NCBI GenBank assembly: GCA_028293125.1
Contig: JAQGPJ010000079.1
Coordinates: forward strand, 181,296-215,835
Direction of reading: 5' to 3'
From: Verrucomicrobiales bacterium
Lineage (GTDB): Bacteria > Verrucomicrobiota > Verrucomicrobiia > Verrucomicrobiales > V1-33
Length of the DNA: 34,540 nt
In this document: piece after piece, positions 10,399-13,745 of the stretch
Layout of the letters: each line of letters opens with the position of its first letter
Numbering within the stretch: position 1 is the first letter of the stretch
Translations under genes and position numbers: made by a program
Notes under the pieces: generated by a model
Database searches by the model: none
What the model was told of the DNA's origin: nothing
Seen by the model: only the letters and a program-made list of their open reading frames with translations

Positions 10399-11775
10399 TC
10401 AAGGCTGCACAAAACGCGTCCAGTCGTTGGGGAAGCGCTGGCGGATCTCCTCGGTGACCGCCTCCATGGCGCGGGCGCGGGCGGTTTCATCCGGCAGCGC
10501 CCGGGCCCAGGCGACAGCGGCCTCCGGCTCGCGGGCCTGCCCCCAGGCCCGTGCCAGAGCGGTCATGGCGTCCTGGCTGGCGGGGCCGAGTCCCTGGGCA
10601 TTCAGCCAGTCGCTGGCGGCGGCGGGGTCCGGAGCGGAAGTGTTTCCCCTGATCCGGGAATTGTCGTCCACCCTGGTCCATTGGCGGATAATCCGTTCCA
10701 GCGCCTCGGCTTTGGCGGTGCTGTCCTCCTCCGGAAAACGGCTTAGATACCAGTCGGCGGCGGCGGGGGGATCCTTCTTCATCCATTGATCGGCCACGGC
10801 TTTGCTGAGGATGGTTTTCTGCTCCGGGCTCATTTCCAGCCGGTCCGCCCAGGCGGCCACCTCCCGGGGCTCCTCATGACGTAGGCGCCCTTTGACCAGA
10901 TCTCCGAGTCCGGCGGAGGCTTTGTCCCCGGAGAATGCCAGCACGCGGTTGATCAGTTCCGCAGCATCCGGTGGCCAGGAGGAGGGTTCGTTTTCAAACA
11001 TTTTCGCAAGACTGGCGGCGAGCCCCTCCGCCGCGCTGGCCCGCATGGTGGGATCTGAGATTTGCCGCGCCGCCTCCAAAGCGGTCTCTGGACGCGATGC
11101 CCCCCAGTTGCGGAAAATGGCGGCAAAGCCCGCGCCGTCCAGCTTCCCGGACCGGACCAGCGGCATCGCCTCCCGGTCCCACGCCTCCAGGGCGGCGGCG
11201 GGATCCCGCGCGGCCCAGGCTGCGAACACGGCCCCTGTGCCTGAGAGAAAGCGGAGACGCGTTTCACCTCCGGTGCCGGCTCCGTCCCGCAGCCAGATCC
11301 ACACACCGGCGGGATCGCGGGCCAGCAGCACTGGCCCCAGCAGCCGTCCCGCCATTTCCTCGGCATCGGTGCCGCCCTCCTCCAGCAGGGCATCCACCAA
11401 GGCCAGCAACTGCGGGGTGCTGAGCCGCGCCAGATCCGTGATCAGCCGGGCCTCCGCCAGCCTTGCCAGGAAGCCTCTTCCTCTGGGTATTTTCCGCAGA
11501 TTCAGAAGCGTGCTCTCCAGCAGCGCGGCGGTGGAGGCGGCGGTGACGGCATCCGCCACCGCGGTGGATTCCAGTGCCGGACCGCTTACGGTCCCCGCCG
11601 GGACGGGCGGCCCGCCGGCGGCATCGGAGTGGCTGCGGGCCTGTGTCCAAGCTTTGCCCAACCAGTGTCCAAGGCACCAGAAAAGGACTATCAGGCCCGC
11701 CAGCGTGGCAGGCAGCATCCATTTGAATGAGAAAGGCCGGCGGCGGATGACCGAAAATAAAGGGTGAAGGCTCAT
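10399..11775 (-). CDS. Membrane-anchored helical-repeat protein next to sigma factor
   Basis: A 458-residue protein of unknown function. Residues 1-19 are basic, a single transmembrane helix covers about 20-40 (LPATLAGLIVLFWCLGHWLG), and the rest is helix-rich and predicted outside the cytoplasm. It contains repeats of the kind W(G/A)xx(x)PexAxxxA, for example AAWAARDPAAALEAWDRE, NWGASRPETALEAARQI, AVADQWMKKDPPAAADW and AWGQAREPEAAVAWARALP. Similar units are in the C-terminal part of the sigma factor encoded just upstream (60-base gap, same strand), so the two are probably one operon and one system. It could be an anti-sigma or co-sensor, though no known anti-sigma domain is visible. Confidence 0.72.
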   Translation of the reverse strand: MSLHPLFSVIRRRPFSFKWMLPATLAGLIVLFWCLGHWLGKAWTQARSHSDAAGGPPVPAGTVSGPALESTAVADAVTAASTAALLESTLLNLRKIPRGRGFLARLAEARLITDLARLSTPQLLALVDALLEEGGTDAEEMAGRLLGPVLLARDPAGVWIWLRDGAGTGGETRLRFLSGTGAVFAAWAARDPAAALEAWDREAMPLVRSGKLDGAGFAAIFRNWGASRPETALEAARQISDPTMRASAAEGLAASLAKMFENEPSSWPPDAAELINRVLAFSGDKASAGLGDLVKGRLRHEEPREVAAWADRLEMSPEQKTILSKAVADQWMKKDPPAAADWYLSRFPEEDSTAKAEALERIIRQWTRVDDNSRIRGNTSAPDPAAASDWLNAQGLGPASQDAMTALARAWGQAREPEAAVAWARALPDETARARAMEAVTEEIRQRFPNDWTRFVQP

Positions 11776-11835
11776 AAGCGGGTTCTGTCAGGGAGCGGGC
11801 TCAAGGAGTTCATTGGCGAGGGCGGGGTCCTGCAC

Positions 11836-13455
11836 TCAAGCGGCGATGGAGGACGCACGCTCAGCCGGGGGCAGCATGACCAGGCTGCTGCGGGCCAGAC
11901 GCAGGGTCGCCGTCCGCGTGGCGGGATCCGCGCCGGGGGACAGACGGTCCAGCCACCACTGTGGCCGGTCGGTGATGGATTTCTCCACCGCCTTGCCGAC
12001 CAGCGCGGTCTGGCTTTCCAGCCGGCGCTCCATCTCGGCCACCGCACCCCGCTCATCACGGGCCAGCCAGTCGGCCAGCAGCGTTTCCCCTACCCCCCGC
12101 GCCGGATCAAACGGTGTCCTGCCGCTGTCGATCAGGCCGTTGGCCCAGCGGAAGGCGGCTTCGGGATTCTCCCGTCCCCAGGATTCGGCCACCGCGCGGA
12201 CCGCCTGGCCGGAAAGTTTGCCGTCCGGGCGCAGGGCGTCCGGCTTCATGAGGCGCTCCCTCGCGGCCCGCCAGTCCTCATCCGCCATGGCGCTGAAGAT
12301 CAGGCCCGACACGGATTCGAATTTGTCCGGGTTTCCCCGGAATTCCCCCAGCAGGGTGATGGCGCTCTCCGTATCGCCGGAGCTGTAGTGTGCGAGCGTG
12401 GGATACATATCCTCCGAATACATGGACCAACCGCCGTTCAGGTCCATCTGGATGGTGGAGGCGGCCTGGAGAATATCCAGCAGCGGAGGCCGGCCGCACG
12501 CCGCGCCTCCCGGAGGCGGCGGTCCCGTCCGCGAGGTGCTTGCAGAAGCGCGCGCGCTTCCCGGCTTTATCAAAGCCGCGGCAGCATTCCGGCCGGATGC
12601 CGTGCTGGCCAGCTGCCGTGCCGCCTCCGCCGCGGCCCCGGTGTGGAATTCGCTCCCTGCACTCAGGGCCAGGAGGAGCAGCGCGGCGGCAGCCGCCGCC
12701 CAGGTGATGGATTTTCCGTAGAGCATAAATTGCAGGGAGTGCCAGGACTTCGCGGCCAGTCCCAAGTGCGACGCACCGGTGACCGCGGAGCCCGCGAATT
12801 GGGAGGCTGCCGCCGCGGAGACACCGGGAGACAGCGCCTCCGCATTCAGCATCATGCCGAGGGCGGCGGCGGGAACCGCGACACCGCGCCGGCGCAGCAG
12901 GCGGGAAAGTTTTTCCAAGGCGCGGGAGGCCTGCTTCTGCACGGTGTCGTCCGCCTTGCACAGCCGTGTCCCGATATCCCGAAAACTGTGCCCCTCGTAA
13001 TACCGCAGAATCAGCAGATGGCGGTCGGACTCCGGAAGGTGCTCCAGCGCCTCATCCAGTTCCGTGAGAATGCGGTGCCGCAAGTGGGAGGGGGAGAGCG
13101 GTGGCGGCGGATTCATAACGTCGGATTCGGCGGCCAGGGAGACCATCAGGCGGTGACGGCGGGCCTCGCGCCGGCGGAGCGCGCAGGCCTCCAGCAGGGC
13201 GGCGCGGTGCAGCCAGAGATTCAGGGCTGGATGGCTCCGCAGGGAGGCCGCCTTGGCCGCCATGACCGTGAAAACCGCCTGCGCCGCCTCTTCCGCCAGG
13301 CACTGGCTGCCGCTGAGGGCCCGCTTGGCGGTGCCCAGCACCAGCCCCGCATATCGGCGCGTCAGCACATGGACGGCATCCCCGTCCCCCTGCTCCGCCC
13401 AGCGGCGGAGCAGGGTGCTGTCGCCCGCGGTTTCCAGTGAGTTCAAATCCGGCAT
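11836..13455 (-). CDS. ECF-type sigma factor fused to a transmembrane segment and repeat tail
   Basis: A 539-residue protein. Residues 12-85 match sigma region 2 (STLLRRWAEQGDGDAVHVL, YAGLVLGTAKRAL, AEEAAQAVFTVMAAKA) and 128-190 match region 4 (ALEHLPESDRHLLILRYY, then HSFRDIGTRLCKADDTVQKQ). A C-terminal extension begins with GVAVPAAALGMMLNAEAL, seen in some planctomycete/verrucomicrobial ECF factors, then a transmembrane helix at about 249-268, a low-complexity linker and helical repeats (ESWGRENPEAAFRWANGL). This places the DNA-binding part in the cytoplasm and the repeats outside. The ATG at 13455 is preferred over a GTG two codons earlier. No Shine-Dalgarno is visible. Its promoter targets are unknown. 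Confidence 0.85.
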   Translation of the reverse strand: MPDLNSLETAGDSTLLRRWAEQGDGDAVHVLTRRYAGLVLGTAKRALSGSQCLAEEAAQAVFTVMAAKAASLRSHPALNLWLHRAALLEACALRRREARRHRLMVSLAAESDVMNPPPPLSPSHLRHRILTELDEALEHLPESDRHLLILRYYEGHSFRDIGTRLCKADDTVQKQASRALEKLSRLLRRRGVAVPAAALGMMLNAEALSPGVSAAAASQFAGSAVTGASHLGLAAKSWHSLQFMLYGKSITWAAAAAALLLLALSAGSEFHTGAAAEAARQLASTASGRNAAAALIKPGSARASASTSRTGPPPPGGAACGRPPLLDILQAASTIQMDLNGGWSMYSEDMYPTLAHYSSGDTESAITLLGEFRGNPDKFESVSGLIFSAMADEDWRAARERLMKPDALRPDGKLSGQAVRAVAESWGRENPEAAFRWANGLIDSGRTPFDPARGVGETLLADWLARDERGAVAEMERRLESQTALVGKAVEKSITDRPQWWLDRLSPGADPATRTATLRLARSSLVMLPPAERASSIAA

Positions 13456-13745
13456 ACACACGGCTACTGCCGCGCCCGTGGATTTTCCGACATGAAATTT
13501 CAGGGATGCGATCTTTGATCCTGCTTCCGGCTTGCGGAGAGGTCTCTGTTTTGATCACTGGCGGTAAGGCCCGCCGCGGTGACCGCATAGCCTGGTCAGG
13601 CCCGCGCTCCAAGCATTGGAAGAATCCCAGTTTGTCTCCGTTCCGGATATAACAGGCGCGCTCCTGTAAGGATTCATGAAACTCACGGTTCCCCGGAGTG
13701 CGCCGCCGGACAGTCCCCGTTTCCACTTTTTGAGCCCAGCCAAGC

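Follow-up and report, generated by a model that had tools for sequence, protein, structure and literature searches.

ECF sigma factors that are tethered to the membrane are already known. IutY of Pseudomonas putida (ECF243) combines an N-terminal ECF sigma domain, one transmembrane helix and a C-terminal periplasmic domain in a single chain and is released by Prc and RseP (PMC8999054, PMC5411451), and members of ECF48, ECF52 and ECF53 (e.g. SCO4117) have a C-terminal extension with a transmembrane segment and an outside part. Detergent-soluble fractions have yielded Planctomycete ECF sigma factors, many of which are WD40-tailed (PMC8567305). Verrucomicrobiales genomes encode many ECF sigma factors without a recognisable anti-sigma factor, and our literature search found no paper on tethered ECF sigma factors of Verrucomicrobia.

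We analysed a stretch of 34,540 nucleotides from a Verrucomicrobiales bacterium (the window), in which the gene of a predicted membrane-tethered ECF sigma factor (A) is followed directly by that of a predicted membrane-anchored partner (B). The features of the two genes are:

11836-13455, reverse strand: gene of the membrane-tethered ECF sigma factor (A protein; sigma domain, transmembrane helix, tail), from its open reading frame, sigma families and long paralogues
13144-13440, reverse strand: sigma region 2, residues 8-106 (structural match to 4lup; TIGR02937)
12907-13062, reverse strand: sigma region 4, residues 134-185 (PF08281, 5.5e-11; 3hug, Z 11.0)
12709-12894, reverse strand: putatively cytosolic Ala-rich linker, residues 190-251, from sequence; no Cys and no ZAS motif
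12724-12726, reverse strand: candidate internal start, an in-frame ATG (Met246) that would give a 296-aa sigma-free anchored tail
12658-12708, reverse strand: predicted transmembrane helix, residues 252-268 (hydrophobicity)
11842-12408, reverse strand: predicted extracytoplasmic alpha-helical tail, residues 352-540 (AlphaFold, pLDDT mostly 80-92)
12115-12210, reverse strand: only clear WxxxDPxAAxxW-type unit of the sigma tail, residues 418-449 (repeat HMM)
11776-11835, no strand: intergenic gap of 60 nt between the two genes, which share a strand
10399-11775, reverse strand: partner gene (B protein), an N-anchored solenoid of 458 aa (open reading frame; repeat HMM, 7.2e-24)
11650-11727, reverse strand: predicted partner transmembrane segment, about residues 17-42, N-in from the Arg/Lys ahead of it
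10408-11541, reverse strand: partner alpha-solenoid, residues 79-456 (AlphaFold, pLDDT 84.5, pTM 0.72)
11152-11250, reverse strand: partner repeat unit, residues 176-208 (repeat HMM)
10720-10821, reverse strand: partner repeat unit, residues 319-352 (repeat HMM)
10477-10629, reverse strand: partner repeat units, residues 383-433 (repeat HMM)

The sigma reading frame can start at an ATG at 13455, which gives 539 aa, or at a GTG at 13461, which gives 541 aa. Residues 29-188 match TIGR02937 at 5.9e-15, alongside the PF08281 match, and the modelled structure agrees: residues 8-106 align with region 2 of sigmaE (4lup; Z 12.2, rmsd 2.3, 94 aligned residues in VIA-align) and residues 124-195 with region 4 (3hug; 72 aligned residues). 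With regions 2 and 4 and no region 3, the hallmark of an ECF sigma-70 factor, residues 1-190 of the protein are an ECF sigma factor, as the initial annotation had held. Its further claim of a transmembrane helix after the sigma domain also stands, in that the chain has a single clearly hydrophobic segment past this domain, ITWAAAAAALLLLALSA (residues 252-268), with a Lys before it, and that nearly all homologues have an equivalent at the same distance. The hydrophobicity of the segment is moderate (KD 1.8-2.1), and the topology of both sigma factor and partner was judged from hydrophobicity and charge. Past the anchor lies a tail of ~270 aa, for which AlphaFold predicts helical hairpins over about residues 352-540; the linker, the anchor and residues 289-348 are modelled at low confidence (pTM 0.40). 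This tail is all-helical and gave no WD40 match, and it had zero Pfam or NCBIfam matches, so no FecR-type CSS anti-sigma domain was found in it. The absence of a classical anti-sigma factor, likewise proposed from the first reading, agrees with the Cys-free linker and with our failure to find a recognisable anti-sigma domain either in the linker or among the three neighbours scanned (one PQQ/BamB-like, one DMFA2_C and one unknown); no TonB-dependent receptor was recognised among these three scanned genes.

The two proteins are related through a repeat of ~33 residues with the consensus WxxxDPxAAxxW. An HMM of the repeat unit, from which both window proteins had been withheld, scores the partner at 45.9 bits (best among 982 shuffles, 6.4) and the sigma tail at 17.0 bits (best among 901 scored shuffles, 10.3), and sigma factor and partner share one unclassified repeat. 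The description of the next gene as a membrane-anchored protein of the same repeats was therefore correct: it holds about four clear units behind its predicted anchor, and its AlphaFold model is of better confidence than that of the sigma tail. For the sigma tail itself, the shared family was upheld but only the unit at 418-449 is clear, alongside degenerate helices, and the plural “repeats” is generous for this copy. Several sigma paralogues have more units.

Our analysis thus defines an unclassified repeat family. No Pfam model covers the repeat, with a sporadic HEAT_2 match at 6e-4 in one of 27 repeat proteins tested, and no Pfam family was found for the window partner when TPR, PPR and HEAT were compared. 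When the partner profile was searched against PDB sequences, the matches were only at chance level, the partner had no match in plasmids, and Foldseek returned no match at E 1e-3 or better. Structural comparison with the PDB retrieved generic helical solenoids, the best rows being PPR proteins at a Z of about 11, which is too low to single out true relatives from other helical repeats. A two-unit profile matched all 13 genomes of the family, with 68 places in the window's own genome, and 56 of 288 genomes in a phylum sample for which the cut-off was stricter and only the best candidates were scored. The carriers that we inspected are mostly anchored proteins that stand alone and measure roughly 400-860 aa. 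One of these (L036:14806-16122, L114:4683-6098, L115:5740-7020) is conserved at 54-58% between members of the genus and evolves much slower than the paired repeat proteins. At L112 and L113 (G002:C571 and C557) there are two repeat pairs, perhaps facing each other, each of which adjoins a paralogous membrane protein beginning MLNDL. A pattern scan derived from repeat alignment A6 was dropped because this alignment is too diverse.

The tethered architecture is widespread in the order. The window's own genome encodes about 15 tethered sigma factors of 500-890 aa, nine with tails of the repeat type and six with other tails, some of which look LTxxQ-like by eye. Three family members carry full-length sigma-anchor-repeat orthologues, 54-59% identical to the first and found across genera, which are encoded in named Verrucomicrobiales MAGs; when named genomes were queried with the window sigma, none matched, from which we conclude that the pair evolves fast. 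Of 190 genomes from the order, 189 had relatives in a profile search, with many open frames of 450-900 aa, although the weaker matches will include ordinary ECF sigma factors. The distance to the anchor is nearly fixed: across an independent set of 60 long tethered sigma factors from other Verrucomicrobiales families, an anchor follows region 4 in 60/60, at a median of 45 residues (25-75%: 44-47; 10-90%: 42-49), and the tails have a median length of 385 aa. In the family set, the anchor lies 33-59 residues after region 4 in 28 of 31. An excess of Pro in the anchor helices of sigma factors (17/31) over stand-alone anchors (10/31) was not significant (p=0.12).

The outside tails of this sigma-anchor chassis seem exchangeable. 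The tails attached to it at L033:11566-13086, L032:5099-6760, L171, L174 and L177 look LTxxQ-like (Spy/CpxP/CnrX type), and that of L186 has a pseudopilin-like DSWGNPF motif at its end. A secreted 901-aa RCC1-like repeat protein lies directly after a tethered sigma factor with a non-repeat tail (L032:2184-4889) and is possibly another type of partner. L224 (G054:C15) holds a direct tandem of two short-tailed tethered sigma factors with MTTTTK right before both anchors, and a decayed tethered-sigma fragment with three in-frame stops is found at G000:C88:171583-172331 (L016, L019). Candidate split genes with a TGA reported inside were discarded, the TGA being located upstream of the start or past the tail and not at the anchor.

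The initial annotation had proposed comparing neighbourhoods, and the pairing indeed recurs in other families, together with 4-nt overlaps and separate A and B classes. In the window's own genome, a repeat protein is encoded directly next, on the same strand, after six of nine repeat-tailed sigma factors and after none of the six others (Fisher p=0.028), and three of the six pairs have a 4-nt gene overlap. The independent set shows the same contrast, with the repeat in the next gene for 18/27 repeat-tailed sigma factors vs 2/26 otherwise (p=1e-5) and 4-nt overlaps in 18/53. The closest copies of the window sigma and partner (33% and 30%) come from the same-genus genome G002 and lie on two contigs. 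The one holding the partner starts within an upstream ORF, whose end is separated from the partner by about 60 nt; this is consistent with the gene order of the window without being proof of it.

Tandem pairs of anchored repeat proteins also occur without a sigma factor, and computational comparison shows that their upstream members resemble sigma tails (A) and their downstream members resemble partners (B). The A protein of L042 is closest to that of L148 (140 bits) and the A protein of L029 to those of L111 and L109, while the B protein of L042 is closest to that of L121, then to those of L148 and L137; window A and window B each match their G002 copies. There are exceptions: the solo L035 tail is similar to several B proteins, and the A and B of L137 are alike. 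A and B are thus largely separate sequence classes whose order is kept across genomes, so most pairs, L137 excepted, are not recent tandem duplicates, and the idea that each pair arose by recent duplication of the tail does not hold in general. Because sigma tails resemble A and partners resemble B, the module is best seen as an A-B receptor pair in which the sigma factor would be a cytosolic output module fused to A. Three MAGs (L129-L131) carry tethered-sigma orthologues at 54-55% identity that consist of anchor and tail, lack the sigma domain and sit behind an aldolase-like gene. At L121:4420-6001 (G004:C20), the upstream A gene is degenerate, through either a real deletion or an assembly fault: the start of region 2 is followed by a TAG, after which the sequence resumes near residue 567 of the L042-type protein. 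The B gene that follows has stayed intact (43% to L042 B).

The initial annotation had proposed to look for conserved cleavage sites near residues 249-268, and no cleavage motif was found there; the conserved feature of this region is a Met just before the anchor. The first Met of the sigma-less L129-L131 forms aligns with it. It is present in 20/31 sigma factors of the family set, in which the first 30 linker residues are nearly Met-free (5/930), and, compared with synonymous shuffles, the mRNA around it is looser by a mean of 2.2 to 2.4 kcal/mol (p=4e-5). This effect is restricted to about 10 codons on each side, and it is seen neither at 296 other internal Mets nor before the anchors of nine Met-less sigma factors nor at 58 other internal transmembrane segments. 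As the signal was found post hoc, we tested it on the independent 60. There, a Met occurs at -9 to -3 of the anchor in 53/60, and in 27/32 after dereplication at 50%, where chance would give about 0.13 each; the mRNA is looser by 1.72 kcal/mol (p=3e-6), vs 0.14 at 644 other internal Mets. Dereplication leaves +1.82 kcal/mol (p=7e-6; p=0.003 above low-structure-matched controls) and, downstream of the Met, third positions that are more often A/T (p=4e-4), although all these p-values overstate independence because the sequences share ancestry. The residues that follow are T, K, S, A and N, then Lys, which looks like the N-terminus of a signal-anchor protein. At Met246 of the window, the MFE is -4.8 against a synonymous mean of -9.8 (fraction 0.035).

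These observations suggest that the conserved Met may be an internal start yielding a sigma-free tail. Extended to a general proposal, tethered sigma genes of Verrucomicrobiales would be dual-start, encoding the full sigma-anchor-receptor and, from a conserved, Shine-Dalgarno-independent internal ATG, the anchored receptor by itself, which would join the co-translated partner solenoid, so that the ratio of products and release from the complex would set sigma output; we put this forward tentatively, and rate it somewhat short of even. The main rival to an internal start is that the Met is a relic of gene fusion, or else a protein-level motif at the membrane border, to which we give close to even chances. 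The fusion boundary of L129-L131 does fall at this Met, and the Met is missing from 9/31 sigma factors in the family and 4/60 elsewhere, only one of these four having GTG in its place; since some family members do without it, a short product cannot be universal. The Met also has no Shine-Dalgarno sequence ahead of it, but this is uninformative, as gene starts here are not enriched in such sequences and Verrucomicrobiae include some SD-scarce species (PMC10783764). Against a relic or motif, the low structure exceeds what amino-acid constraint would impose, it disappears in the Met-less family sigma factors and at other internal transmembrane segments, and third positions shift towards A/T after the Met; sequences as diverged as these should moreover have shed a synonymous-site signal left by a relic unless it was selected. 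The sole family member with a strong Shine-Dalgarno-like sequence, GGGAGGGGAGG, ahead of the pre-anchor Met (dG -11.8) is at L084:703-2283.

For the pair as a whole, we favour, with modest confidence, a two-gene envelope-signalling module in which a heteromeric A-B receptor would keep the sigma factor at the membrane until release. Gene A would join the ECF sigma domain through a linker of fixed length and a single membrane helix to an outside alpha-solenoid, and gene B, directly behind it, would supply another anchored solenoid built from this family of repeats. A and B would most likely associate laterally at the membrane's outer face, forming a receptor that holds the sigma domain at the membrane. 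A signal, or loss of the A-B contact, would release the sigma domain, most likely by site-1 and then site-2 (RseP-type) proteolysis and without an anti-sigma factor, and the internal start before the anchor may additionally give the A receptor without its sigma domain, which would set how much receptor there is per sigma factor. The initial annotation had already suggested that a signal is received outside, that sigma is released and that the two tails may interact, and we infer such reception, release and direct contact as well. The genome encodes site-2 proteases, which is weak evidence because, to our knowledge, RseP-type proteases are near universal; release by proteolysis is presumed by analogy with IutY (PMC8999054, PMC5411451). 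Counting against the module, three of the nine repeat-tailed sigma factors of the window's own genome have no partner and many repeat proteins are solitary.

We also weighed two other explanations. The same receptor pair could control a sigma factor that is active while tethered, a ligand-driven rearrangement or oligomerisation freeing regions 2 and 4, without any cleavage, for binding RNA polymerase at the membrane. The near-invariant linker length would fit mechanical coupling of this kind, and extensions of the ECF41/42/57 type are thought to work through conformational change (PMC8999054). However, a linker of ~45 residues would confine RNA polymerase to the membrane, and the only characterised fusion of a sigma factor to a transmembrane helix, IutY, is activated by cleavage (PMC8999054, PMC5411451); we regard activity in the tethered state as unlikely. 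It is quite improbable, in our judgement, that the genes are neighbours merely through tandem duplication of solenoid genes, with a partner that does not act on sigma. Repeat genes are abundant in this genome, as the 68 profile matches attest, and sigma-less tandem pairs exist, but largely separate A and B classes in an order kept across genomes (L137 being the exception) speak against this origin, as does the strong tie of pairing to the type of sigma tail (18/27 vs 2/26).

The receptor module that we favour would indicate a recurrent modular answer to the control of ECF sigma factors that lack a recognisable anti-sigma factor: a fixed linker and anchor with a swappable outside tail, to which the repeat-type tethered sigma factors add a tightly linked partner gene. 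The internal start, if true, would be an unusual in-gene tuning of a one-protein signal transducer.

The described systems resemble this module in parts. The window sigma has the single-chain layout of IutY, a match that rests on topology predicted from hydrophobicity and charge, but the IutY tail is a CSS anti-sigma domain that works with a TonB-dependent receptor, whereas the window sigma carries an alpha-solenoid as its tail and is paired with an anchored solenoid. ECF48, ECF52 and ECF53 share the extension across the membrane and differ in their zinc-finger anti-sigma domain (HxxxCxxC, between region 4 and the transmembrane segment), the corresponding residues 190-251 of the window sigma being free of Cys. 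ECF57 of Planctomycetes is similar in its large C-terminal repeat-domain extension, its many paralogues and its occurrence in PVC bacteria, yet its tails are WD40 beta-propellers and not alpha-solenoids, and its conserved Cys pair (sigma2, sigma4) is missing in the window sigma, in which Cys 54, 92 and 166 are unconserved in alignments. The LTxxQ sensors of CnrX/CnrY-CnrH and Spy/CpxP recall the LTxxQ-like helices of some paralogous tails, while the window tail is of another type; in the Cnr system, sensor, anti-sigma factor and sigma factor are separate proteins. As far as the literature searched goes, which did not include the 2021 ECF classification, the alpha-solenoid tail, the linked partner, the logic of A-B pairs and the conserved pre-anchor Met are new.
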